Of a stretch of 62,449 nucleotides of DNA, positions 2,592 to 47,018 are shown piece by piece. The notes beneath the pieces were generated by a model, which worked only from the letters and a program-made list of their open reading frames with translations, was not told where the DNA came from and did no database searches. A program made the position numbers and the translations under genes. Positions within the stretch are counted from its first letter, which is position 1, and every line of letters begins with the position of its first letter. Source of the DNA: a virus; the IMG/VR virus record IMGVR_UViG_3300020442_001526, positions 1 through 62,449 of that record; one strand, 5' to 3'.

Positions 2592-2861
2592 ATGTCGAAA
2601 CCTTACGCACAAACTCACATAGCAGAAAACATATTTGAAAGAGTATTTGATTTATCAGTAGACAATGAAGAACTTGTCTGGCACAGAGATAAAAAAACAA
2701 GATTTGTTAAAGTTATAGAAGGCGTAGGTTGGAAATTCCAATTTGATAATCAACTACCAAAAGAAATAGGCCCCGGGTCCACTATACATATCAATAAAAG
2801 ATGTTATCATAGATTACTAAAAGGCTCAACTCCATTAAAAGTAAGAATAGTAGAATTATGA
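2592..2861 (+). CDS. Small cupin-like protein
   Basis: 89 residues with a single-domain cupin pattern: LVWHRDKKTRFVKVIEGVGW, then FQFDNQLP, a G-S-T-I-H-I strand and CYHRLLKG near the end. The spacing fits the two conserved cupin motifs with candidate metal or ligand histidines in WHRD and YHR. Similar short proteins occur beside virion genes in T4-like marine phages. The substrate is unknown. Its stop overlaps the start of the nucleotidyltransferase gene, so the two are translationally coupled. Confidence 0.6.
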   Translation: MSKPYAQTHIAENIFERVFDLSVDNEELVWHRDKKTRFVKVIEGVGWKFQFDNQLPKEIGPGSTIHINKRCYHRLLKGSTPLKVRIVEL

Positions 2862-4639
2862 AAAAAGTCGTAATATATCCAGGCAGATTCCAACCGATGT
2901 TACCACATCATGCCGAAGTATATAAAAAACTTCAAGCAACATTCTCAGACGCAGAAATTTATGTAGCAACATCAGATAAAGTTGACGGCACAAAAAGTCC
3001 ATTCAATTTCAAAGAAAAAGCAGAAATTATGGCACAGTTGCATGACATTCCAATGGATAAAATAATCAAAGCACCGCAACCTTATTTAATAGATTCATAC
3101 ACTAAAAACTTTAATCAAGAAGACACAATGGTTATATTTGCTGTTGGTGAAAAAGATACTGACCGTTTTCCTATGAAAAATGTAGATCCTGAAACAGGAT
3201 TAGACATGAGAGTACGAGGAGAACCAGGTCCAAAGTACTATCAGATGATAAATACATTAAAGCAACATCCAGCACTTCCAATGAGTGAAAGGGGTTACAT
3301 TTACGTTGCTCCTAATGTTGGAACAAACGGTGAAGTTGCAAGTGCAAGTGCTTTTAGAAAAGCATTCACAAGTGTTGGAAGTGAGCAAGAGCAAAGAGAA
3401 ATTTTCAATCAGTATTTTGGAAGTTTTAATGAAACTATATTTGCATTGTTCACAAATAAATTATTAGGTGATAAAATGAAAGAAGATTTAGATATACTAA
3501 AAAAATTAGCAGGTTTATCAGAAGCACCCATCAATTTTGGTGATGTAGATACCGGAATGAAAGATGACGATGACGATGATTATGTAACAAGTCCTGGATT
3601 TAGCCAAGACAACATGATAAATCAGTTAGGTAAAATTATTGATAGTGAAGATGCAGGTAAAGATGCAGAAGCAATGAAAATCAAAAAGTTTACTCCAGTA
3701 ACAAGTGTTACAACTGATGATGGAAAAACAGTTGATATTAGTCCTGCACAAGCAAAAGCATTAAAAAGCATGTTTGAAATGCTACCAAGTCAAAGAGGTG
3801 GCGAAGAAAAATCACCTAGAGAAAAGTTTCAAGATGCTATCCAACAAGAAGAAGGCTTAATGCAGATGTTAGACTTTGCTAAGAAAAAAGGCATGGTCAA
3901 AGAAGAACAACAAGATTTAGAGCAACTTGACTTATCTGATATTAGAGCAGACTATGGTATTGAAGAAAATTGGGCTAAAGATATCATTCAAGATGCTATA
4001 GAAATGAGCCCAGAAGAATTTAAAAAAACTTATGGTGATTCGTATGACCAAGATGAATTAAGAAAACAGTACGATGATTCACATCCAGAGTATGAAGAAC
4101 CAAGAGAGCCTGCAGAAGAAAGTGCTCCTTTTGGTGAACCTAGCAGAGAAGATATGATGTATAATCATTTAATATCTGCATACGAAAAAGGTGAAGGTGA
4201 CTTAGCAGAAGTTATGGGCATGAGCATAGAAGAACTTGACCAAGAGATGAGTGAATATGCTAGAGATCATAACTTACACATGGACGACGATAGAGATGAA
4301 GTTGTTCAAGGTTACATAGAAGATGTAGTCAACAATGCAGACTATAAAGACCATGGCGAATACGAAGGGGAAGAAATGGACGATTTAAATAGATTAAGAG
4401 AACTTGCAGGTATGGAAGAAGCAAGTCCAAGTGCGGCGGCTACTAAGGCGGCAAGAGGCACAGGTCAATCAGCGGCACAAATTTCCAAAGGCATTGACAT
4501 GATAGGTAAAAGAGGTGATAGAGCATCACAAGGTGCAAGTGAAATGGCAAGAAATATGGAGATGCTTTTAAATTCACCATTTGGACCTAGAGTAATGTCT
4601 ATGATTGACAAGTTAAAAGCAGAACAAGGTGTTCAGTAG
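2858..4639 (+). CDS. Cytidylyltransferase-like (nucleotidyltransferase) domain protein with long acidic C-terminus
   Basis: 593 residues. Residues 1-~190 form a Rossmann nucleotidyltransferase of the cytidylyltransferase/NMN-adenylyltransferase type: YPGRFQPMLPHHAEV (the GRFQPxxxxH class motif) and a C-terminal ASASAFR signature. Residues ~209-222 read LKKLAGLSEA and ~508-523 read LNRLRELAGMEEA, a repeated linker that also occurs in the next gene. The remaining 400 residues are acidic and low complexity (DDDDDDY near residue 237). It lies among virion genes, so it may be packaged. The substrate (CTP- or ATP-dependent) cannot be decided by eye. Confidence 0.75.
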   Translation: MKKVVIYPGRFQPMLPHHAEVYKKLQATFSDAEIYVATSDKVDGTKSPFNFKEKAEIMAQLHDIPMDKIIKAPQPYLIDSYTKNFNQEDTMVIFAVGEKDTDRFPMKNVDPETGLDMRVRGEPGPKYYQMINTLKQHPALPMSERGYIYVAPNVGTNGEVASASAFRKAFTSVGSEQEQREIFNQYFGSFNETIFALFTNKLLGDKMKEDLDILKKLAGLSEAPINFGDVDTGMKDDDDDDYVTSPGFSQDNMINQLGKIIDSEDAGKDAEAMKIKKFTPVTSVTTDDGKTVDISPAQAKALKSMFEMLPSQRGGEEKSPREKFQDAIQQEEGLMQMLDFAKKKGMVKEEQQDLEQLDLSDIRADYGIEENWAKDIIQDAIEMSPEEFKKTYGDSYDQDELRKQYDDSHPEYEEPREPAEESAPFGEPSREDMMYNHLISAYEKGEGDLAEVMGMSIEELDQEMSEYARDHNLHMDDDRDEVVQGYIEDVVNNADYKDHGEYEGEEMDDLNRLRELAGMEEASPSAAATKAARGTGQSAAQISKGIDMIGKRGDRASQGASEMARNMEMLLNSPFGPRVMSMIDKLKAEQGVQ

Positions 4640-4652
4640 TTAAGGAAATAAT

Positions 4653-5435
4653 ATGCCAAAATCAGATTTAGATAGAGAAATGTTCAAAACAGCAGGCATG
4701 CAACGTGCCGCTAAAAGAGATGCTATGGGAAAAGAATTTGGCATTGGTAATTTTTATGCTTGGTTGATGGACAAGTATCCTAAATTAACACTAGGCCAGG
4801 TAGAACAAAAAATGCCTAGTTTAGAAAGAGAATACAATCAGGAAAAGACTATGAGAAGAGAACGTCCTGATGAAGTACCTACAGTAAGTCCTTTCAGTGA
4901 TGATGAGAAAGAAGTCAAAAAAGCAAAAGGTATTAAAGAACCTGAAACTTTTGAAAACACAAAGGATCCAGAAAGCAAAGGTGATTGTGAACCATGCAAT
5001 GGCACAGGGTACAAAGACGGTGATATGAAGTCACTTAAGGCTTGTCCTAAATGTGATGGTGATGGTGAAAGTCCAGGATTTGGTGGTACTAAAGCATACG
5101 AAGAATTAAACAGAATGAGAAAACTAGCAGGACTTCCTATTATGGAAGATGATACTGTTACTAAAATAGCAATAGGTCATGTTGATGATGAATCAGACAT
5201 GATGAGAAAAGAACTATACAAGATAGGAAAGTATAGTGTAGAATTATACAAAATGTTAGGTGACCTACCTGACGGAGATTTCCCACACTGGTGGCAAGGC
5301 AAAATTGTTAAAGCAGGAGAATACATTGGTTCTGCTAAACATTACCTAGAAGGTGAACTTTATTCACCGGAAGAAGAGAGTCCATTAGACAAGGAACCTG
5401 AAGACAAAGACGATATAAATCCATCAGGAGTCTAA
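4653..5435 (+). CDS. DnaJ-type zinc-motif protein, virion cluster, unknown
   Basis: 260 residues. The N-terminal 80 form a basic helical region. Residues ~111-140 hold two CxxCxGxG-like motifs (CEPCNGTG and CPKCDGDG), as in DnaJ cysteine-rich domains. Residues ~150-160 carry LNRMRKLAGLPIME, the linker also seen in the preceding protein. The C-terminal half is helical and acidic. No J-domain HPD motif is visible, so it is not a DnaJ chaperone. The role is probably structural or scaffold-associated. Confidence 0.6.
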   Translation: MPKSDLDREMFKTAGMQRAAKRDAMGKEFGIGNFYAWLMDKYPKLTLGQVEQKMPSLEREYNQEKTMRRERPDEVPTVSPFSDDEKEVKKAKGIKEPETFENTKDPESKGDCEPCNGTGYKDGDMKSLKACPKCDGDGESPGFGGTKAYEELNRMRKLAGLPIMEDDTVTKIAIGHVDDESDMMRKELYKIGKYSVELYKMLGDLPDGDFPHWWQGKIVKAGEYIGSAKHYLEGELYSPEEESPLDKEPEDKDDINPSGV

Positions 5436-6127: not shown

Positions 6128-6877
6128 ATGACAGTAGAAGCATATATACCTAAGCACAAATATATAGCAACAACGTTGCAATCTTCAAATATAGATATTG
6201 ACTTATCCACAGCAAAAGTTTTAGAACTATGGGGTAATGCTGGAACACTTTTAAAAGATCCAGAAAATGAAGTTGCTGAGGAAAACTATGCTGTATTTGA
6301 TTATGATTTAGAAGCCATTGAAGCAGGCATAGAAGAATTTCCTAATGCAGATTTCCGTAGATGGAATCATCATAATCAAATGAATAATCCAACTGGTGTC
6401 ATTGATGAACCTTTGCCGTTTGTATCAGATGATAAATTTGATTTAATCATTATGTATATGAAAAGTGCAAACGTTGATCCTGAAATTTTAGAGAATCTTT
6501 TAAAAGATTGCTACGAGCATCTTAATCCAGGCGGTACTATTATGTTTGGTTTGTTTATCAGAGAAGTGTCTTTAAATTATTTTGTAGTAAGAAGAACACA
6601 TGAGTATGGTATGCTTGACGAAGGATTAATCGAAACTACAGAAACTGCTGACCATTTCTGTCTAATCAATAACGATGACATTAGACCACACATAAAACGT
6701 GTACCAACAGAAGGTGATGACGGAGTTAGAGAAGCAACTCACTATACTTGGTTTTGGAATTCAGATTACGTTGGAGAATATTTAAAAGAATTATTCCCTA
6801 ATGATAAAATTGGTACAAGACGTTTACCGCCTATGTGGAGCATACATTCTCCGTTTACTATACAGAAAACTTCCTAA
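6128..6877 (+). CDS. Class I SAM-dependent methyltransferase-like protein
   Basis: 249 residues with a Rossmann methyltransferase outline: KVLELWGNAGTLL (motif I position, glycine-poor), YAVFDYDLEAIEAG (motif II, acidic end), FDLIIMYMKSAN (motif IV position) and HLNPGGTIMFGLF (post-motif). It shares the RRWNHHNQMNNPTG element with the methyltransferase at 11331, which suggests a common phage family. Motif I is weak, so SAM binding is not certain. The 3' end overlaps the convergent gene at 6858 by 20 bases. The substrate is unknown. Confidence 0.6.
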   Translation: MTVEAYIPKHKYIATTLQSSNIDIDLSTAKVLELWGNAGTLLKDPENEVAEENYAVFDYDLEAIEAGIEEFPNADFRRWNHHNQMNNPTGVIDEPLPFVSDDKFDLIIMYMKSANVDPEILENLLKDCYEHLNPGGTIMFGLFIREVSLNYFVVRRTHEYGMLDEGLIETTETADHFCLINNDDIRPHIKRVPTEGDDGVREATHYTWFWNSDYVGEYLKELFPNDKIGTRRLPPMWSIHSPFTIQKTS

Positions 6878-7553
6878 CAGATTCGGAACTTAAACTAGCA
6901 ATTAAATGTATTCTTTCTTGGTTACTGTAATTAGTAGCACAATGCATCATGCTTGTATTTAAAAGATAAGAATTACCAGATTTAAAATTTGCTACTTGTA
7001 AATTAATTTCTTCGCCTTCATCACTTGGTGTACCAAAATTATTAGGCCAATTAACTAAAAAACATCTATTGTTAGTAGTAATAGGGAAATGCAATCGCCA
7101 GTCCATTACTGCACCTCCGCCTTGAAGTGTATACATCAAAGGACTACCATCTACATGAATACTCAATGTTGTTCTAGGTGGTAATATACTCAATCTCCAT
7201 CTATAAACATCAGAATATTTTGATATAAGTTCTTCTATGTATGTGCCTTTAATTTGATTTATAGGATGTACATATAATTTTTCATTAAGCATTTCATTGC
7301 TTTCACGAGTAATTTGAGTATTTAAATTTATTGAATTATCGCTTTGTGTTTTATTAATAAAAGTTTTACCTGCAATGCCGTCTGTCCAATCATCACTGTT
7401 TTCTTCTGATACAGTTAAACTTATATTTCTATTTGCTAGATATTCATATTCATTGTTTATTGCATCTTTTTTAATAATTTCATAAACATCTAATACATCT
7501 TTTTGCAAAGATTGAAAATCGAAAGATTCATTTAATTTGATAAAAGGTTTCAT
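6858..7553 (-). CDS. 2-oxoglutarate/Fe(II) oxygenase-like protein (aspartyl/asparaginyl hydroxylase type)
   Basis: 231 residues. A double-stranded beta-helix core is suggested by LSILPPRTTLSIHVDGSPLM (HxD iron ligands), a central WRLHFPIT strand, and HCATNYSNQERIHLI near the end (distal His and an Arg for 2-oxoglutarate). This fits dioxygenases that hydroxylate proteins, lipids or sugars. It is the first - strand gene of the accessory island and overlaps the next oxygenase by four bases. The substrate is unknown. Confidence 0.65.
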   Translation of the reverse strand: MKPFIKLNESFDFQSLQKDVLDVYEIIKKDAINNEYEYLANRNISLTVSEENSDDWTDGIAGKTFINKTQSDNSINLNTQITRESNEMLNEKLYVHPINQIKGTYIEELISKYSDVYRWRLSILPPRTTLSIHVDGSPLMYTLQGGGAVMDWRLHFPITTNNRCFLVNWPNNFGTPSDEGEEINLQVANFKSGNSYLLNTSMMHCATNYSNQERIHLIASLSSESVRKFSV

Positions 7554-8218
7554 AATTTAAATTCCTTTTTATCTGATAAATGTAATGCGCCGGGTCTAAC
7601 ACAGCCTGTAATAGTTAAACAATACCTGGGCCAGTAACCTACATTACCAGTTGCATGATATATACCTTCGGGCCAACAATGTACATCTCCTATTTTATAT
7701 TGATGTATAACATCATTACCTACAAGAACATAATGGCCCCAATTCCAATCATTTAGTTGTACTAAGTATCTAATAACTTCTGTTTCATCACTTACTTTTG
7801 CAAAGTTTCTTCTATAATTATTATAACTATCCCTGTGCCAAGGAATACACTTACCAGGAGGTTGTTCTAAAAACATTATTTGTGGGTTCCACAAACCAGA
7901 TGCTTGTGCCATTAAATGAAAAAAGTTTGGCAAGTTTCTAGTTTGTCTACCACCAGTATTTTGTGAAGTAAATCCTGCATTAGTCAAATCATTATGATAT
8001 CCTTCCATAATTATTCTTGCTTCTTCATTATATGGCTCACCTTTAAAACTTACTTCGTCGTATTCATCGTCAGGTGTAAATCTACTTACTGCTTCTTGTA
8101 CATGTTTTTCTAATTTGTCATTAACAAATCTTCCAACATAAGTTACGTCAGAATGTTTACTGCTTGGATCATAATGCCAAGGAAAGTTTTCTTTATTCCA
8201 TTCCCAATAACTACTCAT
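7550..8218 (-). CDS. 2-oxoglutarate/Fe(II) oxygenase-like protein
   Basis: 222 residues. The iron-site pattern is IPWHRDSYNNYRR (HxD), followed by strands and HATGNVGYWPRYCLTITG (distal His plus Arg). It is different from, but adjacent to, the previous oxygenase, and the four-base ATGA-type overlap implies translational coupling. It is upstream of 6858 and follows the GH6 gene in transcript order. The substrate is unknown. Confidence 0.65.
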   Translation of the reverse strand: MSSYWEWNKENFPWHYDPSSKHSDVTYVGRFVNDKLEKHVQEAVSRFTPDDEYDEVSFKGEPYNEEARIIMEGYHNDLTNAGFTSQNTGGRQTRNLPNFFHLMAQASGLWNPQIMFLEQPPGKCIPWHRDSYNNYRRNFAKVSDETEVIRYLVQLNDWNWGHYVLVGNDVIHQYKIGDVHCWPEGIYHATGNVGYWPRYCLTITGCVRPGALHLSDKKEFKL

Positions 8219-9064
8219 CTATGTATTCCTTACTAATTCTTCTGCCATTTCGCCCCAGAATCTTCCTGCTCTTGGTCCTTTGTTTGCTTTGCCATCTGAT
8301 TCTCCTGGTATTTTTATCCATAAAAAAGCATCACATTTTTCTTCGCCTGTATCACAAGTAGGTGGAGTTCCTAATGCTCTGCCCGGAGGATTACACCAAT
8401 CGTTACCATGTGGCCCATTGCCATTACGACTAGTGTCTATTACAAAGAAGTCATTTGGTCTATGTTCACAAAGTTCTAAACTCCATTTCATACTTTCTGT
8501 ATTAGACCTGTAATTACTTACATTGACTGCAAAACCTCTAACTTTATTGTTAGTAACTTTATTTAGTAATTTACTTGCTTCAACAGGACTAAGCCAATTG
8601 CTGTGTCCTATGTCTATATAAATTAATGCATCACAATTATCTGTTAAAATTTGTAATCCTTCTTTCATTAATGATATACGTGAATCAGCATCTGCATCAG
8701 ACATTTCAACTGTATGTGTCAAACTATCTGGTTCATAAATTAATATAGGTTTGCTTTTGCCTATGCCGTCTGCAAAACTTTTTAAAAAATTTAAATAACT
8801 TTGTCTAGTTTTAGCACCGCCTTTACTGTATTGTCCTATATCCCTGTTAGGCATGTTATATACGACTAATACGGGCAACTGAGGATAGGTTCTACGCAAC
8901 AATCGTTGCAAACTGTAATCAATCTTTTCCATTTCTTTTCCGTTACGTTCGCCGTACCAAAAAGAAACAGGATACTCAAATATCTTACTTGCTAAAGGAA
9001 ATTTTTGCTTGTGGTCTTTTACTCTATCAAAGTCATTGACCCAAAAAGGATAATCAAGACTCAT
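8219..9064 (-). CDS. Glycoside hydrolase family 6 (cellulase/cellobiohydrolase-like)
   Basis: 281 residues, the size of a GH6 catalytic core with no extra module. Family signatures in order: VLVVYNMPNRDIGQYSKGG (D75, position of the general acid), LIYEPDSL (D113), YIDIGHSNWLSP (residues ~149-160), GFAVNVSNY, FVIDTSRNGNGP, WCNPPGRALG and FLWIKIPGESDG (D257, equivalent of the fourth catalytic Asp). GH6 enzymes hydrolyse beta-1,4-glucan with inversion. There is no obvious signal peptide, so it would act in the cell, on lysis, or via the virion. The stop is one base before the next start, and the start overlaps peptide deformylase by 11 bases. Confidence 0.85.
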   Translation of the reverse strand: MSLDYPFWVNDFDRVKDHKQKFPLASKIFEYPVSFWYGERNGKEMEKIDYSLQRLLRRTYPQLPVLVVYNMPNRDIGQYSKGGAKTRQSYLNFLKSFADGIGKSKPILIYEPDSLTHTVEMSDADADSRISLMKEGLQILTDNCDALIYIDIGHSNWLSPVEASKLLNKVTNNKVRGFAVNVSNYRSNTESMKWSLELCEHRPNDFFVIDTSRNGNGPHGNDWCNPPGRALGTPPTCDTGEEKCDAFLWIKIPGESDGKANKGPRAGRFWGEMAEELVRNT

Positions 9065-9599
9065 TTTGGATTTTACGCAAGGCTAAATCTGTTTCCAACA
9101 ATCTTAATTGTTTATTTCGTTTTTTCATTGCACGTTGTAATTTCATATCACTTGCATACTCTAAATAAAGTTTTCCTTGCAAATGGTCATACTCGTGCAG
9201 GAAACATCTTGCGTCTATTCCTTCTAACCAATCTTCAACGACTTCTTTGTCAACAGTTTGAAATCTTACTTTTACTTTTTTAGGTCTTGTAACAATAAAA
9301 TATAATAATGGGAAAGTTAAACAACCTTCTTCCATTGCAACTGATTCATCGCTTAATTCTAATATCTCAGGATTGTAAATACCTACATCTTCTCCTGTTG
9401 CAAATGTCATTACAAACATTCTATGATTACTGCCTATTTGGGGAGATGCAAGTCCAATACCAAACCTATCTTTCATAAGTTGTATCATTTGTTTTTCTCT
9501 ATCTTCCCAATCAATATCTTTATCATCAAAAGGATTTACAGTTGCTTCTAAGTGAAGAACTGGAGTTTTTGGTTCTACTAATTTAATATCTACTGACAT
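9054..9599 (-). CDS. def: Peptide deformylase
   Basis: 181 residues with all three motifs: FGIGLASPQIG (GxGxAxxQ), EEGCLTFP (EGCLS type, metal Cys) and FLHEYDHLQG (HExDH, two metal His plus catalytic Glu). It removes the formyl group from nascent N-terminal Met, and phage copies are thought to support synthesis of phage or host membrane proteins. The C-terminus has a basic extension (KLQRAMKKRNKQL). It overlaps the DUF6580-like gene upstream and the GH6 gene downstream. Confidence 0.92.
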   Translation of the reverse strand: MSVDIKLVEPKTPVLHLEATVNPFDDKDIDWEDREKQMIQLMKDRFGIGLASPQIGSNHRMFVMTFATGEDVGIYNPEILELSDESVAMEEGCLTFPLLYFIVTRPKKVKVRFQTVDKEVVEDWLEGIDARCFLHEYDHLQGKLYLEYASDMKLQRAMKKRNKQLRLLETDLALRKIQNES

Positions 9600-10086
9600 A
9601 TTTCTTTTTTTCTAAAGTTTTATTTAAATAAATTACTTCTGCTAAAGGTGTAACTGCTTTATGAATAGCATAAAATACAGTTGCAAACACCATTGTACTA
9701 CCTAATAGTCTAATATCAAATAGCAATGCTTCTGGTGATAATGGTGGGAAAGGCCCTGGAATGTTCACAATTAAGTGCCATAAAACAACACTTAATACAG
9801 AAGTTCCCATTAGTGTTGAGTACTGACCCTTATTTAAAACCCGGGAGATGACGCCTATAAGGCCCATTGTTCCGTAGGTTAGCCACATTGTGCTGTAAAA
9901 ACCCAAGAATATGTCTGTAATAAACATTAAACTTACAGGCAAAAACATTTGCAAATTCTTATTAGAAGTCATGTACGGCAAAAAAACTGCCATAGCAATA
10001 ACAGGAGTTATGTTTGCTGGTAATATAAATCTAGATAATAAAATACAGCCTAATAATAATCCTGCACTCTTGAAGAAATCTTTCAT
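9583..10086 (-). CDS. Multi-pass membrane protein, DUF6580-like (ECF S-component-like)
   Basis: 167 residues with five to six hydrophobic spans. The pattern NITPVIAMAVFLPYM, SLMFITDIFLGFYSTMWLTY and LSVVLWHLIVNIPGPF resembles DUF6580/ECF-transporter substrate-binding subunits. Such proteins bind small vitamins or related compounds, but the substrate cannot be told here. An exact GATAAATA lies five bases upstream of the ATG, and the gene overlaps peptide deformylase by 17 bases. Confidence 0.6.
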   Translation of the reverse strand: MKDFFKSAGLLLGCILLSRFILPANITPVIAMAVFLPYMTSNKNLQMFLPVSLMFITDIFLGFYSTMWLTYGTMGLIGVISRVLNKGQYSTLMGTSVLSVVLWHLIVNIPGPFPPLSPEALLFDIRLLGSTMVFATVFYAIHKAVTPLAEVIYLNKTLEKKKYVSRY

Positions 10087-10091
10087 ACAAC

Positions 10092-10099
10092 TATTTATC
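10092..10099 (-). promoter_or_regulatory. GATAAATA late-promoter-like motif
   Basis: Reads GATAAATA on the - strand, six bases before the ATG of the membrane-protein gene. Transcription from it could drive the membrane protein, deformylase, GH6 and oxygenase genes as one unit. Confidence 0.55.
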
Positions 10100-10106
10100 G
10101 GAAAAT

Positions 10107-10385
10107 TTATGCACTGGATCTACAATATGAATCTATTAATGCGTCACCTTTTAGTTCTTCTCCAAAGGTGTGTACATGCTTTCCATTTCTTTGACGTATA
10201 ATTACGCCACTGTTATAAGTTGTGTCTGTGACTGGGCCGTTTACTTCTATTTCTTTTTTGGTAAAGTCTGTTTCGTACCACATAGATGTTAAACTATGAA
10301 TTTGTATACAAGCAACACCTTTTGCCCATTCTTCTGCTTCTAGTAATAGTCTTTGTCTTTCGACTCTATCGTCGTATTGTCCCAT
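10107..10385 (-). CDS. Unknown small protein just downstream of a consensus promoter
   Basis: 92 residues from MGQYDDRVERQRLLLE. The longer reading from 10433 starts at a GTG inside the tRNA-Thr gene and is rejected. An N-terminal amphipathic helix is followed by a beta-rich half (ETDFTKKEIEVNG, IIRQRNGKHVHTF). The ATG is seven bases after a perfect TATAAT, so the message would be leaderless or nearly so. No family recognised. Early expression is likely from the promoter type. Confidence 0.65.
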   Translation of the reverse strand: MGQYDDRVERQRLLLEAEEWAKGVACIQIHSLTSMWYETDFTKKEIEVNGPVTDTTYNSGVIIRQRNGKHVHTFGEELKGDALIDSYCRSSA

Positions 10386-10392
10386 AATGTTT

Positions 10393-10421
10393 ATTATAAT
10401 GAAATTAATAGTCTTTGTCAA
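10393..10421 (-). promoter_or_regulatory. Consensus sigma70 promoter TTGACA-N17-TATAAT
   Basis: TTGACA at 10416-10421 and TATAAT at 10393-10398 on the - strand, spacer exactly 17. It drives the 10385 gene and begins immediately after the tRNA-Thr gene. Confidence 0.85.
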
Positions 10422-10424
10422 GAA

Positions 10425-10500
10425 TGGAGCCACCTGTCAGATTCGAACTGACGACCTATGGTTTACAAAACCATTGCTCTACCAACTGAGCTAAGGTGGC
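10425..10500 (-). tRNA. tRNA-Thr (anticodon UGU), CCA encoded
   Basis: The - strand folds as a full cloverleaf: acceptor GCCACCT/AGGTGGC, D-stem GCTC/GAGC with AGTTGGTA loop, anticodon stem ATGGT/ACCAT around TTTGTAA, and T-arm with TTCGAAT. The anticodon is TGT, reading ACA. The 3' end is U followed by encoded CCA. Confidence 0.95.
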
Positions 10501-11338: not shown

Positions 11339-12080
11339 TTACTATTACCGCTGTTTTTTGTACATGACCCGATATAGGATATTTTATTTCTACATTATGT
11401 AAGTATTCTTTTAACCACTCAACATTATATATCGTAACTAAGTGATTTACAGGCGTTTTACCGAATAAATGATCCAAAAGTAAATCATTATCTACAAAAT
11501 ATTTAAAATCATTTATATCACACATCAAAATATCCTTGTGACTTAAACATTTTTTATTGGGATAATCCAGTACACGTTTTTTTGTAAAATACTCTGCAGA
11601 GTCCTTGTCTACAAATGTTAATCCAATTTGTCCACCAGGCTTACATACACGTTTGATTTCTGCTAAGTCAAATACAAATTGTTCAAATGTTGTATGACTA
11701 TAAACACTATATGCTAAAACATAATCAAAGGTATTATCCTCAAAAGGAAATAATGTGTTTTCTGTTCCTGTAGGATTATACATGTGATTAAATGCATTGT
11801 GGTGAATCCAATTTGCGTCTGGAAAATTTTGTTTACCGTCTTCTAATGATTTTTTGTCTACATCTAAACAATAATAATCACTAGGTTTTATAGATGCTGA
11901 TACGCCATCTTTTAAAAAATTTCCATTATTGCCACCAATATCTAAAATCTTTTTATTTTCCCAAGTAGGATTTTTAAACATTACATTAAAAAAAGGTAGC
12001 CTTGGGTGTCTTGGAAAAAGACTAGACTGCTGAGACCATTCTACATCATTGTTCAATAAATCTTGAACTGAATCGTTCAT
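11331..12080 (-). CDS. Class I SAM-dependent methyltransferase
   Basis: 249 residues. Motif I ILDIGGNNGNFL, motif II YYCLDVDKKSLEDG, motif IV FDYVLAYSVYSH and post-motif VCKPGGQIGLTF are all present, as in small-molecule/ubiE-like methyltransferases. An IHHNAFNHMYNPTG element is shared with the 6128 protein. The start coincides with the end of a glycosyltransferase gene, which suggests modification of a glycan or glycolipid. The substrate is inferred from context only. Confidence 0.8.
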   Translation of the reverse strand: MNDSVQDLLNNDVEWSQQSSLFPRHPRLPFFNVMFKNPTWENKKILDIGGNNGNFLKDGVSASIKPSDYYCLDVDKKSLEDGKQNFPDANWIHHNAFNHMYNPTGTENTLFPFEDNTFDYVLAYSVYSHTTFEQFVFDLAEIKRVCKPGGQIGLTFVDKDSAEYFTKKRVLDYPNKKCLSHKDILMCDINDFKYFVDNDLLLDHLFGKTPVNHLVTIYNVEWLKEYLHNVEIKYPISGHVQKTAVIVNE

Positions 12081-13000
12081 TACAACTCTAATTTGGTATC
12101 GTCGGGTAGGCGTTCTTTAGTTGGTGGAGGTAAATCATCGCCTCCTGAATCTTTTTTGTTAATACTTTTAAATTGTCCTGCGCCTTTTGGATTATGACTT
12201 GACATATCCTCAAAAGGATTTATTGTTCCATTAACAAATTGTTCAAAAGGACTAGGTGTTGTGTGTACTCCAAGTTTTTTTAGAAACCAATCTATTTTAC
12301 TAGCATGGTGCATTCTTGCTTGTTGCATATTTGGATGATTAAAATCTTTTGGATCTTGTGGATTACCTTCCATATATTTTCTATTTGCAAAAGTTTCATC
12401 GTCATTACCACCAGTCATGTCTGCTCTATCATGTAGAATGTCAATATCTATCCTTTCAAAAATGCCATTCATTCTAGCAATTACACTTACCCATGTGTCG
12501 TTTTGTGCATTGATACTCCACGCATCACATAATACAAACCAATCTGCAGGAATTAGAGGAAAAATAGCAAATGGATGGTCATGATTATCTTGAGGTGCTA
12601 AACATTTAAATTGTCCATCATAACTTCTAACTACAGTATCCCATCCTTTTGTTTGCATAAGTGCATCATCATTCCATAGGAATAACCAAGACCCTGAACT
12701 AGCATGACATAATAAATTAACATAAACATTTAATTGTTCATATCCTAAAGGTCTGAATACTTTTGCTTTACAGGCACACCCATATGGTTTTACAAAATCC
12801 GATGCATCATTATTTACCCAGTCAATTGATTCCTGGTCGTCATCATCTACTCCTAGCATAATTTCTATTCTACTAGGATCGTCTGCATTTTTCAATAAAC
12901 TTTCGATACTTGCCTGTAGAGCACCGTTTGTTCTTCCCCTAGTTGGAAGAATAATACTAATTACACTTCCTTCAAAATTTTGTATTTTTGCATCTACCAT
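12080..13000 (-). CDS. Glycosyltransferase family 2-like
   Basis: 306 residues. GT-A features: SVISIILPTRGRTNGALQAS at the N-terminus, IEIMLGVDDDDQE, and GSWLFLWNDDALMQTKGWD (DDA in place of the usual DxD). The C-terminal ~60 residues are polar and probably disordered. It is flanked by a second GT-A protein and a methyltransferase, forming a small glycan-modification cassette. Donor and acceptor are unknown. Confidence 0.75.
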   Translation of the reverse strand: MVDAKIQNFEGSVISIILPTRGRTNGALQASIESLLKNADDPSRIEIMLGVDDDDQESIDWVNNDASDFVKPYGCACKAKVFRPLGYEQLNVYVNLLCHASSGSWLFLWNDDALMQTKGWDTVVRSYDGQFKCLAPQDNHDHPFAIFPLIPADWFVLCDAWSINAQNDTWVSVIARMNGIFERIDIDILHDRADMTGGNDDETFANRKYMEGNPQDPKDFNHPNMQQARMHHASKIDWFLKKLGVHTTPSPFEQFVNGTINPFEDMSSHNPKGAGQFKSINKKDSGGDDLPPPTKERLPDDTKLEL

Positions 13001-13004
13001 CTTT

Positions 13005-13943
13005 TTATCCTGTAATAAGTTTTCTTATATTGCCTCTGAACGTATAATGTCCAACGTGGTTAAGTGCTGTACGTGGATCTAAATATACTTCACCGCCCAT
13101 GTTTTGCCATAGTCTACAAAACGTATAATCCTCTGAAAGATAACGTCTACTTTCAGGATCAATCATAGTGTCAAATAGTGCATACATGTGTTTTTCAAAT
13201 TTTTGGTCAACGTTAATATCGTTTGCATATTTTAGTTCAGGATGCTTATCAAACATTTCTTGAATAACTTCTTTTTTAATACACATAAATCCTGTGCCAG
13301 CATCTTTAAGTTTAATAAGGTTATCCCTGATTTGTATCTGAGGAGTTGCATTTCCTTTATCATCTTTTAAGAAATCAAAGTTTACAACATAATTAGAACT
13401 GTGACCTTCTATTGTTTGTGCTGTTTCGTCTTGATTATTTCTAGCCGCACCTACAATACTTTCCCAATTGATTGCTTTTTTAGGATATGCGCCTACTGTA
13501 ATAGGTCTGTCATATGCAACCATTCTTAATAAATCATTAGGATCAAATTCAATATCTGCATCAATAAAGAATAAATGTGTTGCTTCAGGATGTTCCATAA
13601 AGAAACTTACGAGTGTATTTCTGCCTCTTGTAATTAAACTTTCATTTGCTAATGTACTTACTGTAAACTGGATATCATACTTATTGCAAAGTATAGCAAG
13701 TCTCATCATGCTTCTAAAATATGGTTCGCCAATTTGTCCACCGTAACATGGTGTTGCAATAAAAATATGTTTGTCTCTTAATACCTGAATGGGTATTTCT
13801 ATTTTTGCGTCAAGTAACTTGAACAATACATCCTGGTCTTTATCAGGCTGTATGTTTTCATTTACTTTTGTCGTTTTTGATTGTTTATTTTGCTTCTTTG
13901 CACTTTTTTTAGCAGATGCTCTGCGTTCTTTTCTATTAGCCAT
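13005..13943 (-). CDS. GT-A glycosyltransferase-like protein
   Basis: 312 residues. A basic lysine-rich start (NRKERRASAKKSAKKQNKQ) is followed by KHIFIATPCYGGQIGEPYF, RGRNTLVSFFMEHPEATHLF and the metal-binding FIDADIEFDP. The C-terminal part contains AGTGFMCIKKEV and SEDYTFC, typical of GT-A folds. It starts behind a TTGACT-N17-TAACAT promoter and is followed four bases later by a GT2 gene. Probably part of the same glycan pathway. Confidence 0.7.
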   Translation of the reverse strand: MANRKERRASAKKSAKKQNKQSKTTKVNENIQPDKDQDVLFKLLDAKIEIPIQVLRDKHIFIATPCYGGQIGEPYFRSMMRLAILCNKYDIQFTVSTLANESLITRGRNTLVSFFMEHPEATHLFFIDADIEFDPNDLLRMVAYDRPITVGAYPKKAINWESIVGAARNNQDETAQTIEGHSSNYVVNFDFLKDDKGNATPQIQIRDNLIKLKDAGTGFMCIKKEVIQEMFDKHPELKYANDINVDQKFEKHMYALFDTMIDPESRRYLSEDYTFCRLWQNMGGEVYLDPRTALNHVGHYTFRGNIRKLITG

Positions 13944-18904: not shown

Positions 18905-19509
18905 ACGGAATACTCCTTAAATTTTTCAAAATTGATATTCCATACAACTTGTGGTACTTGATAAAAATCAAAAATACCCTCTGGAACAGCAATGCCTTTT
19001 CTTTTCCACCAATTACGTTTTATGTAATCTGTAATTGAATTTGTACTCTTTACATAATTATCTGAGTATGCTTTATTGGCTAATGTAGTACCAAACGTTG
19101 CTTTAAAGTTTTCTTGTTCACTTGCCCACTTTAAATTGTAATATAATAATCCATCGAACTCAGGCATTTCATGTCCGCGACCATAACGAACAAATTTTGT
19201 CATAGGTATATTTTCATTTGGTATTCGTGAAAGTCTAGTCCAAACTCTATAATAACCTTCTTTGTACTCAGGCATATACTCAACGCCTCCTACTGCATAA
19301 ATTTCCTCAGTGGGTATATGCACCATGCAATGATATTTAATTTTGTCTACTTTCATTGCATCAGGTGATGCATTCTGTGTAAATCCTAAACTGCCTGCTA
19401 CATCACAGAACTTTTCTAACATAGGCATCCAATAGTCATCTAATTCGACACAACCTATTTTGCCATCGAAAAAAGTTCTTAAGATTTTTTGATTGTTGCT
19501 ATCATCCAT
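18901..19509 (-). CDS. Unknown phage protein (GNAT-like size, unproven)
   Basis: 202 residues from MDDSNNQKILRTFF. This start is preferred to the ATG at 19533 because GTAGGCAG precedes it. Alternating helices and strands (YHCMVHIPTEEIYAVGGVEY, YRVWTRLSRIP) could form an acyltransferase-type fold, but no catalytic motif is clear. It overlaps the desaturase end and the next hydrolase start, so it belongs to the lipid-related operon. Confidence 0.55.
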   Translation of the reverse strand: MDDSNNQKILRTFFDGKIGCVELDDYWMPMLEKFCDVAGSLGFTQNASPDAMKVDKIKYHCMVHIPTEEIYAVGGVEYMPEYKEGYYRVWTRLSRIPNENIPMTKFVRYGRGHEMPEFDGLLYYNLKWASEQENFKATFGTTLANKAYSDNYVKSTNSITDYIKRNWWKRKGIAVPEGIFDFYQVPQVVWNINFEKFKEYSV

Positions 19510-20246
19510 CTGCCTACGTCCAACTCGTACCATTTAGTGTTAAAGTTTAATCTTCTTGGTCTATAATGATGATTGTTATGTAAACTTTCACCCCATGTTA
19601 AAAATACTAACCAAGGATTGTTTGTGCTGTTATTTTGCATAGGATCTGTTTCATATGTTAATCCTTTAATAGGCAAATGTCCAAATACATTTACTATTCC
19701 ACTTATTACAACACTTAAAAAACTTGCATTCAAACTTGCAAGTATATATCTACCATCAAACCACCAAACTGTAAATGTTGTAATTAAAAATAAGTTTAGT
19801 AGTATTAATAACGCATAATTTTTGTGGCACCAGATTGCAAACGGATCTAAAGTTTTTTTAATCTTAAAAAGTTCTGTCCTAGCAAATTCGTGATTTTCTT
19901 TATGAAATATCCAACCAAAGAAAGCATAAAATAAACCCTTAGTTGGTGTATGTACGTCTCCGTCTTTGTCTGTGTGTGCATGGTGACTTCTATTGTGTAA
20001 TAATGTCCAAGTCACCGGCGAGCCTTGTGCTCCTTGGCAACCTAAATATAAAAGTAATTTGCGTATAGGTTCCCAAGTTTTAAAACTGTTATGTGCATGT
20101 AATCTATGAAAGCCAACACTTATTCCATATCCACTATATAATAATGTAAAAAATGCTGTAGCACACCATAATTGTAAACTGCCAAAAGCCATAGACCATG
20201 CTAGACTTAATCCAGCAATTGGTAGAAATAATAAGTAAAACAACAT
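19479..20246 (-). CDS. Fatty-acid desaturase (delta-9/acyl-CoA type)
   Basis: 255 residues from the ATG at 20246, which overlaps the previous stop as TAATG. Three di-iron histidine boxes: HRLHAHNSF, HNRSHHAHTD and HNNHHYRP, with four hydrophobic spans between them. This is the arrangement of membrane delta-9 desaturases, which insert a double bond in acyl chains. It is slightly short for the family. It is paired with a second desaturase immediately upstream. Confidence 0.9.
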   Translation of the reverse strand: MLFYLLFLPIAGLSLAWSMAFGSLQLWCATAFFTLLYSGYGISVGFHRLHAHNSFKTWEPIRKLLLYLGCQGAQGSPVTWTLLHNRSHHAHTDKDGDVHTPTKGLFYAFFGWIFHKENHEFARTELFKIKKTLDPFAIWCHKNYALLILLNLFLITTFTVWWFDGRYILASLNASFLSVVISGIVNVFGHLPIKGLTYETDPMQNNSTNNPWLVFLTWGESLHNNHHYRPRRLNFNTKWYELDVGRWMIATIKKS

Positions 20247-21070
20247 TATTTCTTCAATCCGTCTATGACCCAACCACTAACATCTATTTCTGTCCAGTGT
20301 TGACTGTTGTTTGTTGCTTTCCAATATCTATGATGATTATTATGCAACATCTCTCCCCAGGTCAAAATTGCACCTAGTCTATTATTCACACTATTGTCTG
20401 GAGTTTCATAATTTCTATAGCCAAACCAACTCATGTGACTTAGTGCTGTTACTAAACTTGTGTTCATTAATGTTGCCCATATACCAAACCAAACACCATA
20501 TAATGCAACTTGCCAACCAAATAGTAACCAAACCAAACCAACTGTTCCATAGTTTATTACTATATGATAATCATTTAAAAATGTATAATACTTGTCATTT
20601 ACAAAGTTACGTCTGATATATGTAACTAAAACACGTCTGTCTATGTGTTTATCAAAATATTCTTGTTCTTTATGCCATGTTAAAAAAGCATGCCAAAATC
20701 CTTTTAAAGGACTATGTGGATCATCTTCTCTATCACTATTCTTATGATGTCCTCTTTCATGAATCATAACCCAAGGGAAAATACTTCCATAGCCATTAAA
20801 CACACTAAAGGTAGTCATGATTCGTTCTCTCCATTTGGGCATTTCAAATGCAGAATGTCCCCAATACCTATGCAATCCTATTGCCATGCCAATACAGCCA
20901 AATAAGAAGTATGTAAATAATCCTAACCATAAGTAATTCCAATCTCCATTAAAAGCCATAATCGGCAGAATACACACACCGACTATTTGTATAGGAAGTG
21001 TGTAAAGCCAAAAGTTCGCTTTTGCTTTATCTTTAAAAAAGTTTGTTAAGGAAGTCAAAATTTTGCTCAT
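20246..21070 (-). CDS. Fatty-acid desaturase (second copy)
   Basis: 274 residues. His boxes HRYWGHSAF, HERGHHKNSD and HNNHHRYW, with membrane spans such as YLWLGLFTYFLFGCIGMAIG. It is homologous to, but well diverged from, the 19479 protein, so the pair may act at different positions or chain lengths. The start lies 38 bases inside the end of the PP-loop-like gene. The likely effect is on host membrane fluidity or a phage-specified lipid. Confidence 0.9.
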   Translation of the reverse strand: MSKILTSLTNFFKDKAKANFWLYTLPIQIVGVCILPIMAFNGDWNYLWLGLFTYFLFGCIGMAIGLHRYWGHSAFEMPKWRERIMTTFSVFNGYGSIFPWVMIHERGHHKNSDREDDPHSPLKGFWHAFLTWHKEQEYFDKHIDRRVLVTYIRRNFVNDKYYTFLNDYHIVINYGTVGLVWLLFGWQVALYGVWFGIWATLMNTSLVTALSHMSWFGYRNYETPDNSVNNRLGAILTWGEMLHNNHHRYWKATNNSQHWTEIDVSGWVIDGLKK

Positions 21071-38748: not shown

Positions 38749-40437
38749 CTACTTTTTATTACGTCCTGACTTCATGTTGGCACACCAGTGATACATTTTT
38801 GACTTCTCACCACTGCTGTCTTTTGCTTTTTTGCGTAGACTTGTTACTGAACCTTTACAACTTGCACCTGCACGTTTTACTCTGCCTGGACGACTTTTAC
38901 CTTTCTTTTTGCCGTCAGCAAAATTTTCTATAATCTCTGCTGGAATTACATCTCTGCCAACACGTTTTGCTTGATACACTCTGTGAAAACCATCAAGTAT
39001 TGTTTTGCCATCTACATCTAACAGTATTGGTTCATCTAAATCAACACCTACATCTGGATCAACATCTATTACTCTACTAAAACGGTCATCATGTGCTTCG
39101 TCATCTAAGTCTGCTACTTTGACTTTGATTAGTTTGGTCTTTTTGCCTTTGATATAATCTTTAACAGCAGGATTTAGATTTCTTTCATCTAATTGTTCCA
39201 GTTCATCTATAAATGGTTGTGGGTCCATATCCTGATTTTCAAACTCATCTATAAAGTTTCTCAACTCCATTTGGTATGCTTTCTTTAAAATTTCAGGATC
39301 TTCGTTGCCAGTAAAATTACTAAGACCTTTATGAACTCTATTCATATTGTCATCAAAACCATGCTCTTCTTCTCTGTCGTGGGTCATATAGTCCCAAACA
39401 TCTTTGAGCATTTTAACACCATTTATATTTACATACTCTCTTTTTATATAAGTGCCTGGAAAATTAATAACTTCTGCTTCTGACATTTTAGATTTTAGTA
39501 AATCTTTAAAATAGTTTTCCTGCATTACTGCTCTGTCACTTGTTTTATCTTTGAATACATCCATTACTTTTTCTATGTCTGCGTCAACTATAATTGCAGG
39601 AACACGTTTAATACCTAGTATATTAGCGGCATCATATCTATGATGACCATTTATCAAGTATCCTCTTCTATCTAGAATAAAAGGTCTGTCTGCTTTTTTA
39701 AGAAATACGTCTTCTGCTTTTTTACTTAATCCATCTACACGTTGAGTTTGTACATGTTTAATTTTATCTATACTGATTGTACCTTCTTTGTATTTTAAAT
39801 CTGATTTATCTAAATGTTTTCTTCTAATTTGTGGCAATTGGTTTCTATCAAAATGTTTATCACTAACACTTCTACTATAACTTTCTTCTATGCCTTTTCT
39901 TAAACGTATAACACCACAGGCAAGTCTTTCTCCTGCATTACCTGTTTTTAAACTTTCTTCATCTCCACCCAAACCTAAGTCATCTTCGTCTGCATGTATT
40001 ACCATTGCTCTGCCTACAACACTTCGGTCACCACTTAAATCAACACGTCTTGCAACAATTTTAAAACTAGCAATGCCTAATTCATTTGCAACAATATTGC
40101 CTAAGTCGCCTACATGCCCAATTGCTAAATCTCCATGGTCAACTCCGTCTGGATTGTAATGACCTCCAGCACTATCACAACCATCACTAAGGTCGCCAAA
40201 CTCATGAATATGTATTCCGTGTTTGCCAGGTGTAAGTCCTTTTATTTGTCCTCTGATTATTGTAGGTTTGTTTGGTTCTTGTTTTAAAACAATACCGCCT
40301 GATATATCACCTTCAACATGTTCTAATTGAACTACTGCTTTTATTATTTCTTCTGCTTCACTGATTGTGTTTAAAGACTCGCACTGGCAACTTTTTTCTT
40401 TTGTTCTAGGGCATTTTTTAAAATCTGTTATTCGCAT
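38749..40437 (-). CDS. Cu/Zn superoxide dismutase fused to two ParB-like domains
   Basis: 562 residues. Residues ~30-180 are a complete SodC domain: H76 and H78 in [10 protein letters not shown]87, H93 in GGHYNP, H101, H108 and D111 in [13 protein letters not shown]148 in [10 protein letters not shown]171 and C174 in GERLACGV. All copper and zinc ligands, the disulfide pair and the active-site Arg are present. Residues ~205-300 hold a ParB-like domain ([16 protein letters not shown]), and ~430-505 a second ([15 protein letters not shown]). The last 55 residues are basic ([16 protein letters not shown]). There is no Sec signal, but [10 protein letters not shown] resembles a capsid-targeting leader. 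Confidence 0.85.
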
Positions 40438-43400
40438 TATCTAATTGCATATTGTGGCGATGCTTTCATTTGGTCATCATTCCACGAAATGCCTCCTGTA
40501 ACTTCTACTTTGCCTTGAGCAATAGCCTTAATCATTTCATCTCTATTGTTAATAATATAATAAGACCTTGTATTACTGTTTATGAATAATATATTTTCTA
40601 CATTGTCTTCTATGTTATAACTTTCATATGCCAGACCTGTGTAGTAACTCCATAGTCTTTGCATAGATAATGTACCATCTTCATTAGGCATTTTAGCAAC
40701 AATTTTTTCAAAATCAGGCACACGTTTCCAACCAGGCATTATACCTTTTATAACACCTAATAATAATTCTGTGGTTTTCTTTTTGTCGCTATATGGCTCT
40801 AAAACTTCATCATTTAAAAATTGAATACCTTTTGCATTAAAATTATATCTACTTGCTTGTTTACCAGCGGCAGATGTGTATTTCATAAATCCTGGTTCTT
40901 TAGCGGCTTCAGATGGATTTTTATTTGGATTTAGTTCTCCAATTTTAGGATAAATCTTTTTGATACCTTTTTCCAAAGGTCCCCAACCATTCGTTCCCGA
41001 ACTTATACCTTTACTGTTTAATCTAGCACCATATATGGAATTACCTACTTTTCCGCTTTTCAATCTTTTAAAGCCACTGCCTTTTAATTCGTACATTACT
41101 CCATCAATTTCTAAGTCACCATGTGATTCTGCTTTTTTAGCCGGGTTACCAAATATTGCAAGTCCCACTTCTGCAGGACCATAGTTACCACTTGTAGTAC
41201 CACCTGGAATAAATTCAAAAATATCACCTTTGAAATAACTATCAAAAATGTCTAATACTTCTTTATCTAAATTTCGATTGATATGGTCATCTATTTTACC
41301 TTCTTTAGCGGATACCAATGCCTTAGTATCAATCAGTTCACCGTTCATTGCATGGGTTAATAATTTACCTAATGCAACTAAAGATACTTTTTCATCTTCT
41401 TCAATTCCGCTGATAATACTGTTTAACTTGTCTGCTATACTGTTTTGTACTTTATTAAAATTAGATGCTTCATATTTGTCATCTGCAATACCTTCTGCTT
41501 TTTTAACTAATGCAACTACCTGTTTCTTTAACTGAGTTTTTGCTTTACGCATATCTATTTCACGTTGCTCGCCACCCATTTTAATTGCTGTGTCTATATC
41601 AACTTCTCTAGCAGTATAACTCATAAGTTCTTTTTCTAATTGGTCTATTTTGAGTTCTAATTTTTTAAGTTCTACATTTAATGTATTACATTTATCCTTT
41701 AATTTTGGTTGCAAACATGCCTGCTGTATATCTCTTTGCAATATAGCATGCCTAACAACTTGAGTTCTAAAATCTGAAACAAGTTGAGCAGGTGCTTCTG
41801 ATAAAATACTTTCATTGAGTTTTACTTTAGATTTTACTTCTTCAGGTAATGCACTAACATAAAATCTTAAAATATTTCTAGCACATGCATCATCACCTGC
41901 TTCTGCTCTCAGATTTCTAAATGAATCCAACATAGCAGGAATAGGAATAGCCTGAAATGCCAACATTTGTTTTTTAAGATCACCTACAGGAAAATGGTCT
42001 GCTAGTAATTTATTGATAATTTCAATTTTATTAAAATCATTTACACTTTCTTTCGCCATCTTTGTTGCTGTTGCATACATAACTGCTTTAGCATCTTTAC
42101 CATAACGTTTTTCAAAATCACCTTTGTTTTTCTTCATGCCTTTAACATATTTTTCCTTATCTTTCTTTTCATCTTTTGTTAAAGGGCGTTCTAATACTTT
42201 AGAGTTTTCTAATATTTGTATTTGTTCTTCTAAAGATAATTTGTCAAACTTATCAAATACACTTTCTCTGGAAAGCATACTGACTCTGTCACGTTCTGCT
42301 CTTTGTTGTTGATTTGCATAAAATTGTCTGCCTCTTGCTAAGTGGCCTTGAAAATCATTTGGTTCTTCACCTGCTAATTTTTCTTTCATCATGCTTTGTA
42401 AAACAGCCTTTTTGAAATCTTCATCATTGTCTGGATTTATAAGAAAATCTACCAATTTGTTTACGTCGGGTCTCAATATATAATTTTGCATACCCGAATT
42501 CATCATCCTTTCAAAATCAATATATTTGGATCTGACTTTTTCGTAATCTGCTTCTGTGGTTGTATTGGATCCTGATTGATTATTTGATGAGGGTTTACTA
42601 TACAGGCTACTGACATCGTCGCCATCACTTCCGTCTGCATTCTTTCTAAAATAGTTTCCACCACTTACATTGTAACTCTTTTTGATGTAATCGTATGCCA
42701 TCTTGACTGCGGCGGCCCATCTTTCTGTGCCTATTGCTTTTGGATCTTTTGGACGCCAGTTGTGGTCACTATCGTATTGGTCGTAAACTCTTTTTAGTAA
42801 GTTTACACCTTGGTCATTTACTCCACGTTCTATTTTTAAATAGTCTGCTAAATTAGTCCAATTTGTTTTATCAGCAACATCAGCCGATGCGGCACCTTCC
42901 ATTCCTTCAACACCACCTGCTCTAATTAAACTTTCTACACTATTATGTTCTTTTGCAAGTTGTTTTTCAAGTGCTTTGGCTTTTTTGCTTAATTCAGGAT
43001 TATTGGCATGCCAAGCCGCTGATGCACTAAATTCAAAAGGTTCTCCATATGGGCCATTAATATCTTCTCTAGGAAGTATAGGATCATCTCCTAACCCTTT
43101 CATACCCTCTCTGCCATCACCGTTTTCTTCTGTGAATTTAACACCCACTTCTTGTAATGCATCTTTGATGGTTTTTCCTTGACCAAATACTGCATTAATA
43201 TTTGAAAATTTTGCTTTAAGTGTTTCAAAATCTGTCCTATAAATACTATCAAACTTTCTTTTAATAACTGTGGCTTTAGATATTCTCCAACTGGTAGGAT
43301 TTTTTTGCCTATAAGGTTCGGCAAGAACTTTTTCAGCCTCCTGCATCATAAAATAATGAGATGTTGGTATCAGTATAGCACCGTCATATTGAGATACATA

Positions 43401-46400: not shown

Positions 46401-47018
46401 TGCTTCAAATCCACATTTGATTGCTGAGTTTAATGCTGAAGTGGCTATTTCTTTTTTGTTGAAATTTATTTCGAATATTGCTTCTTCGCCTTGTTCACGT
46501 AATTTGAATTTTCTAGAAAGTTTCTTTAATTTCTTTTTAATCTTGTTTGCTTTGGCTAATTTTAATTTTGAAGATGACGATTTATTTAATTTTCCTAGTT
46601 TACTTTCTTCTACATCTACATATACTTCATCTTGAGGATCTACTAAAGTGTATTCACCTTTTGGGTCTTGTACTACAACTTTATCTGGGTTTGGGTTGTC
46701 TCCTACTTTGCTGACAACTTTACCTAAGACTTCTCCTTTTTCATCTTTGTATTCTGAGTCTACTTCTATTTCACCTGCTTTGATAGGAGTAAATTTTGGT
46801 TGTTCTTGTTCTGGCTCTTTAACATCTAGTCCAGGTGTAGTTGTAGGACTGCCTAAATCTTTTTTGGGTGGAGTTTTTTTGTTTACAGTAGGACTTTTTA
46901 CAGCATTTGCTTTAGCATTTGAACCCGTTTGTTGTTGTGATGTAGGCGTACTTGCGCCTGGCTTCATACCATACTCTGTTAAAACAGACTCTAATGTTCT
47001 AACGTCTTTAAATTTCAT
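40437..47018 (-). CDS. Giant virion-cluster protein with amidoligase-like and nuclease-like segments
   Basis: 2193 residues. Order: leader ([17 protein letters not shown]), low-complexity Pro/Thr/Lys linker (to ~120), very acidic Tyr/Asp region (~190-400), amidoligase-like segment at ~425-500 ([47 protein letters not shown]), a long alpha-helical middle, and a C-terminal ~270 with [12 protein letters not shown] and [17 protein letters not shown], resembling a PD-(D/E)xK-type core (Asp, Glu-x-Lys). The start overlaps the 47015 gene. It may be an internal head protein or an injected effector. Catalytic status is not proven. Confidence 0.65.

Follow-up and report, generated by a model that had tools for sequence, protein, structure and literature searches.

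A GH6 glycoside hydrolase gene in a jumbo-phage lineage: the protein, its operon and what the enzyme may do

What is an enzyme of the cellulase family doing in a phage genome, and where and when in infection would it act? Elsewhere, most glycoside hydrolases of family 6 (GH6) are cellulases that bacteria, fungi and their relatives secrete. The window analyzed here, the whole 62,449-nucleotide stretch of IMG/VR record IMGVR_UViG_3300020442_001526, carries a gene for one such protein in an operon with several small genes. Viral GH6 genes have already been reported: in the available parts of the two reports concerned, they are auxiliary genes for putative cellulases, in Mariana Trench sediment viruses (PMC8725595) and in Aral Sea soil viromes (PMC9948696), found in surveys rather than as the core gene of a jumbo-phage lineage, and the likeness to the present gene is one of description only. 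The soil viral chitosanase that is experimentally active (PMC9485262) is likewise a viral polysaccharide hydrolase, with a different substrate, and is likened here by its description only. The jumbo-phage GH6 lineage examined below was not found described in the open-licence literature (which holds few subscription journals and no preprints), and a 2026 review of jumbo phages does not mention glycoside hydrolases.

Family, fold and active site

The reading frame has exactly the bounds listed in Table 1, starts with ATG and encodes 281 amino acids. The profile search that a first-pass annotation had proposed as a check on its GH6 call has been run and bears the call out: PF01341 matches with E 6.3e-52 (score 177.7 bits, curated cut-off 27; profile positions 13-300 of 305), and phmmer matches the Cel6 of Mycobacterium tuberculosis at E=1.8e-49 and the E2 of Thermobifida fusca at E=1.7e-48. 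The five signature blocks that it had listed are all present in the stated order: NMPNRD (residues 70-75), EPDSL (111-115), DTSRNGNGP (210-218), CNPPGRALG (224-232) and IPGESDG (252-258). The structural check agrees. The AlphaFold2 model (pLDDT 83.5, pTM 0.87, with low confidence in the active-site loop 254-266) superimposes in Foldseek on M. tuberculosis Cel6 (1UP0) with a TM score of 0.88 and on T. fusca Cel6A/E2 (1TML) with 0.84; its top 47 PDB matches are all GH6 or GH6-derived, the fold is the distorted TIM-like barrel of the family, and the catalytic aspartates are in place. PHROGs holds no family for the protein, and no GH6-like viral structure was found in BFVD. The assignment of the window protein as a GH6 enzyme is accordingly strong.

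Alignment with T. fusca Cel6A, whose residue roles we take from general knowledge (D117 as the general acid, and so on), places D117, D79, D156 and D265 at D113, D75, D151 and D257 of the phage protein, Y73, K259 and E263 at Y69, K251 and E255, and the subsite tryptophans W41, W162 and W231 at W36, W157 and W223. The first-pass annotation was thus right that D113 and D257 are present and wrong in naming D75 the general acid: that residue is the counterpart of D79, and the general acid aligns with D113. All of these residues are invariant in the 79 phage proteins that are near full length (the window's included). The phage proteins also have two residues of their own, K81, in a column that is mostly alanine in bacterial GH6, and C244. 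K81 was considered as the loss of a catalytic serine and the idea was dropped: the conserved loop serine is the adjoining S80, which is kept in 79/79.

The Foldseek alignments extend over ~287 columns with endoglucanases and 350-370 with cellobiohydrolases (~360 amino acids); the extra loops that close the cleft of tunnel-type cellobiohydrolases are absent from the window protein, so that an open-cleft, endo-acting enzyme is expected. The protein is predicted to be a catalytically complete inverting endo-β-1,4-glucanase, and would be active as such. It shares with the M. tuberculosis and T. fusca enzymes the Pfam family, the fold, the catalytic Asp, Tyr, Lys and Glu residues and the tryptophan subsites; it differs from bacterial Cel6 in its phage-specific K81 and C244, in lacking a signal peptide, extra modules and the conserved disulfides, and in belonging to a separate clade.

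These absences bear on where the protein would fold. The disulfide C80-C125 (T. fusca numbering) is found in 79/80 bacterial GH6 proteins and in 0/79 from phages; of the second (C232-C267), the phage proteins keep one cysteine, C224, and its partner in bacteria is cysteine in 79/80 bacterial but only 19/79 phage sequences. The phage proteins are 272-318 amino acids long, against a bacterial median of 424, and their N-termini have a low mean hydrophobicity with, on average, no signal-like stretch (the maximum is 2.18, in one sequence), by a crude hydrophobicity measure rather than a signal-peptide predictor. A Pfam profile search of the window protein returned no second domain, hence no cellulose-binding module (CBM); the earlier statement that CBM and signal peptide are both missing stands. 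The phage GH6 proteins, in short, do not have the pairing of signal peptide and disulfides that marks the secreted bacterial cellulases, nor has the window protein a CBM, which is common among those though not universal. The loss of C80-C125 together with that of the signal peptide indicates that the phage enzyme would fold in the cytoplasm.

The phage lineage and its hold on the gene

The window had been taken for part of a T4-like genome, which holds only for its morphogenesis genes, and for these distantly. It is collinear with 160-214 kb of a contig of 339,794 bp (G001), whose capsid, portal, terminase, sheath and baseplate genes resemble those of PA5oct, a 287-kb phage of the Arenbergviridae; the capsid proteins are 70% identical, and the window's DnaB matches that of PA5oct at 55%. 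PA5oct is the nearest cultured relative, and the phage does not belong with the strictly T4-like Straboviridae. The genome is that of a jumbo phage akin to PA5oct and GAP32, with relatives of up to 340 kb, rather than of a simple T4-like phage. Megablast of 25 kb of the window against phage records gave no match. Three further reading frames on the minus strand deserve mention in their own right: one of 2193 amino acids (40437-47018), conserved in part in G001, for which no informative family match was found; a fatty acid desaturase (19479-20273; PF00487, E 2.5e-17), 69% conserved in G001; and a possible fusion (38749-40437) of a superoxide dismutase family domain (residues 24-178) with ParB-like nucleases (residues ~250-325).

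Two scans of IMG/VR, of which the second kept the best 80 of 90 relatives, returned relatives of the window GH6 at 42-93% identity. In a quick tree, with long branches for L099, L163, L041 and L042, 36 phage rows are split from bacterial GH6 by a single branch with an SH-aLRT of 91; the GH6 of Streptomyces phage Gilgamesh and that of a faecal scaffold are placed elsewhere. The gene is under purifying selection, with dN/dS of 0.035-0.117 in informative pairs (one near-identical pair, at 0.278, is uninformative). Its presence was followed through the linked marker gene c6 in relatives of c6 at at least 66% identity: GH6 is found on all 38 contigs that extend at least 9 kb beyond the marker, on 33 of them inside the fetched stretch and on five that had seemed to lack it near c6 (L144, L146, L130, L131 and L132) further on. 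In this sampling GH6 is a core gene of the jumbo-phage lineage.

Operon, promoters and timing

Table 1. Features of the GH6 operon and its surroundings (window coordinates)
Feature	Position	Strand	Basis or remark
c3, convergent neighbour, cytidylyltransferase-like N-terminus	2858..4639	+	phrog_395, E 4.6e-07; 62 loci
c1, convergent neighbour, small conserved protein with GHVDNE...DFPHWWQ domain	4653..5435	+	alignment; 69 loci
2OG-oxygenase (Asp/Arg hydroxylase-like), last operon gene	6858..7553	-	PF05118, E 1.9e-06
2OG-oxygenase-like protein abutting GH6	7550..8218	-	Asp/Arg hydroxylase match below cut-off, E 0.013
GH6 endo-β-1,4-glucanase-like gene	8219..9064	-	PF01341, PDB profile matches, AlphaFold/Foldseek, invariant residues
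Peptide deformylase, immediate upstream operon partner	9054..9599	-	PF01327, E 4.5e-35; phrog_2890
DUF6580 protein, presumed membrane protein, operon member	9583..10086	-	PF20221, E 4.4e-15; hydrophobic sequence
GATAAATA, late-promoter-like octamer	10092..10099	-	ends 5 nt before DUF6580 ATG
Small upstream ORF	10107..10433	-	no family match
Perfect σ70 promoter, TTGACA-17-TATAAT	10393..10421	-	upstream of GH6 operon
c5, glycosyltransferase-like	12080..13000	-	phrog_14945, E 1.8e-06; conserved in 51 loci
c6, conserved linked marker gene	13005..13943	-	phrog_1574; glycosyltransferase-like by eye

The operon is as compact as had first been noted: GH6 overlaps the deformylase frame by 11 nt and directly abuts that of an oxygenase-like protein, whose family is found in 23 loci. 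The partnership with peptide deformylase is the more constant one, this family being present in 65 of 81 GH6-bearing loci, as a rule as the next gene upstream and in many cases with an overlap. The small upstream frame probably has its real start at an internal ATG at 10385, just past the σ70 promoter. Among the surrounding genes, the c5 type has Glycos_transf_2 matches in three related records; searches of solved structures with c1, c5 and c6 gave no credible match, and a match of c12 to TAL-effector repeats, over a 34-residue stretch only, is taken as spurious. The c6 family (phrog_1574) also occurs in cyanophages, pelagiphages and rhizobial phages.

Two promoter-like motifs bear on timing. 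In an unsupervised count GATAAATA is the commonest octamer upstream of reading frames, both in the window (10 sense and 1 antisense for 62 ORFs) and in G001 (39 and 5 for 327). In the latter it lies within 1.2 kb of 18/24 structural genes and 2/24 genes of replication and metabolism, while σ70 promoters accompany 3/24 and 10/24 of these, respectively; the two motifs thus separate late-like from early-like genes. An ATG follows GATAAATA by 5-6 nt at 16 of 61 sites in G001, a peak separate from the spacings of 17 nt and more, suggesting that late mRNAs may be leaderless. No clear Shine-Dalgarno sequence was seen at GH6 starts.

With σ70 sites defined by at least 11 of 12 matching positions, and bearing in mind that the loci counted are related to each other, a sense site lies within 2.5 kb of GH6 in 48 of 60 unique loci, and an antisense site in 4/60. 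The deformylase gene has a sense site in 48/52 loci, the convergent genes c1 and c3 in 1/48 and 2/45 (2-4%). Against a background of 310/728 for other ORFs, the excess at GH6 is about twofold. It is absent within 1.5 kb (18/62 for GH6, 248/833 for background), which implies that the promoters head longer operons. The σ70 placement points to early expression of GH6. The window's operon, which has both kinds of site, may be expressed early as well as late, possibly up to lysis. Exclusively late, lysis-type timing was demoted as an explanation, since GATAAATA is found in the GH6 operon of 11/79 loci and σ70 sites are far commoner.

What the enzyme may do

The reading preferred here, at a probability of roughly 0.4, is that, within the infected cell, a cytoplasmic GH6 enzyme made early along with the deformylase cuts cellodextrins or soluble β-1,4-glucan into pieces that host enzymes can use. 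The jumbo-phage lineage would have acquired the gene and domesticated its product as a cytoplasmic protein, able to fold in a reducing environment without disulfides such as its secreted relatives have. Transcripts would usually start at strong host-type σ70 promoters and cover the deformylase gene and further small genes for takeover as well; the enzyme would most likely shorten its substrate inside the cell, host enzymes would use the products, and at lysis the protein would also be freed. Early synthesis is what the promoters suggest; the substrate and the purpose we infer. Bacterial cellulose is normally extruded, so that a polymeric substrate in the cytoplasm is not obvious. Host carbon release, one of the roles first suggested for the gene, is not sustained as a function of the phage alone: no GH1 or GH3 β-glucosidase was found in eight phage records (some of them fragments), and a gain in sugar would therefore depend on enzymes of the host. 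Attack on a biofilm glucan outside the cell, also suggested at first, is a conjecture.

The main rival, which we regard as possible if rather doubtful, keeps the protein in the cytoplasm until it is released together with the endolysin, whereupon it would open the cellulose-like glucan of a capsule or matrix and let progeny escape, or free them from debris. An endo-type, single-domain enzyme would suit this task, as would the late-type GATAAATA site of the window's operon, and T4 lysozyme, too, is a cytoplasmic protein free of disulfides. Also in its favour, a phage lysozyme (157844-158287) and a cell-wall hydrolase (152351-152986) lie ~10-15 kb from GH6 in G001, and a lysozyme lies within 7 kb in 4 loci. 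The scarcity of GATAAATA in GH6 operons and the common σ70 promoters speak against it, and lysis genes are not consistently next to GH6. (Beside the phage lysozyme of G001, at 154746-158955 (L172), are several GDSL/SGNH-hydrolase-like frames, possibly envelope-active.) That phages can put GH6 on the virion, to clear surface glucan at adsorption, is indicated by Gilgamesh, whose gp72 is 37% identical to the window protein over 77% of the latter's length: there the GH6 domain sits in a larger protein of 444 amino acids, encoded in the tail-gene region two genes downstream of that for a minor tail protein. For the present lineage such a depolymerase is highly improbable. The Gilgamesh enzyme falls outside the clade; the window's is a bare catalytic domain with no tail or trimerisation domain, its gene neither among nor fused to tail genes; GH6 lies tens of kb from structural genes both in G001 (167.7-168.6 kb, with the main capsid and tail block at 225-324 kb) and in G003, another jumbo contig (GH6 of 42% identity at 314.7 kb, structural genes at 43-229 kb); and the usual σ70 placement and the cytoplasmic adaptation also tell against it.

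Two further readings concern the reaction itself. The enzyme might process a phage-made glycan together with the glycosyltransferase-like c5 and the conserved c6, which many loci have 3-5 kb upstream; GH6 requires consecutive β-1,4-glucosyl units, and the failure of c5 and c6 to find credible structural matches also weighs against this idea, which appears unlikely. That the fold has lost catalysis or been re-specialized, and binds or regulates rather than cuts, could be argued from K81 beside the loop serine, from C244 and from the poorly modeled loop; with every catalytic and subsite residue kept in 79 sequences, and dN/dS at ~0.1, there is very little to commend it. A further proposition is that a GH6 lineage moved from the outside into the cytoplasm and became fixed as an early jumbo-phage gene acting within the cell on a host- or phage-made β-1,4-linked glycan; we advance it tentatively, as well short of an even chance. 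Were it true, this GH6 would be a takeover enzyme and not a biomass-degrading cellulase.

A core, cytoplasm-adapted GH6 would imply either that the hosts hold a β-1,4-glucan within reach of the phage, which is unexpected, or that a cellulase has been reused for takeover or release. It is also a reason to check timing, export signals and core status before viral glycoside hydrolases are filed as carbon-cycling auxiliary genes.

Among cellular genomes, GH6 was found in only 7 of the 398 Pseudomonadota that were sampled, a count that includes the chosen centre. It also turned up, at 35-42% identity, in several Patescibacteria-type MAGs (L045-L058), which is unexpected for reduced genomes.
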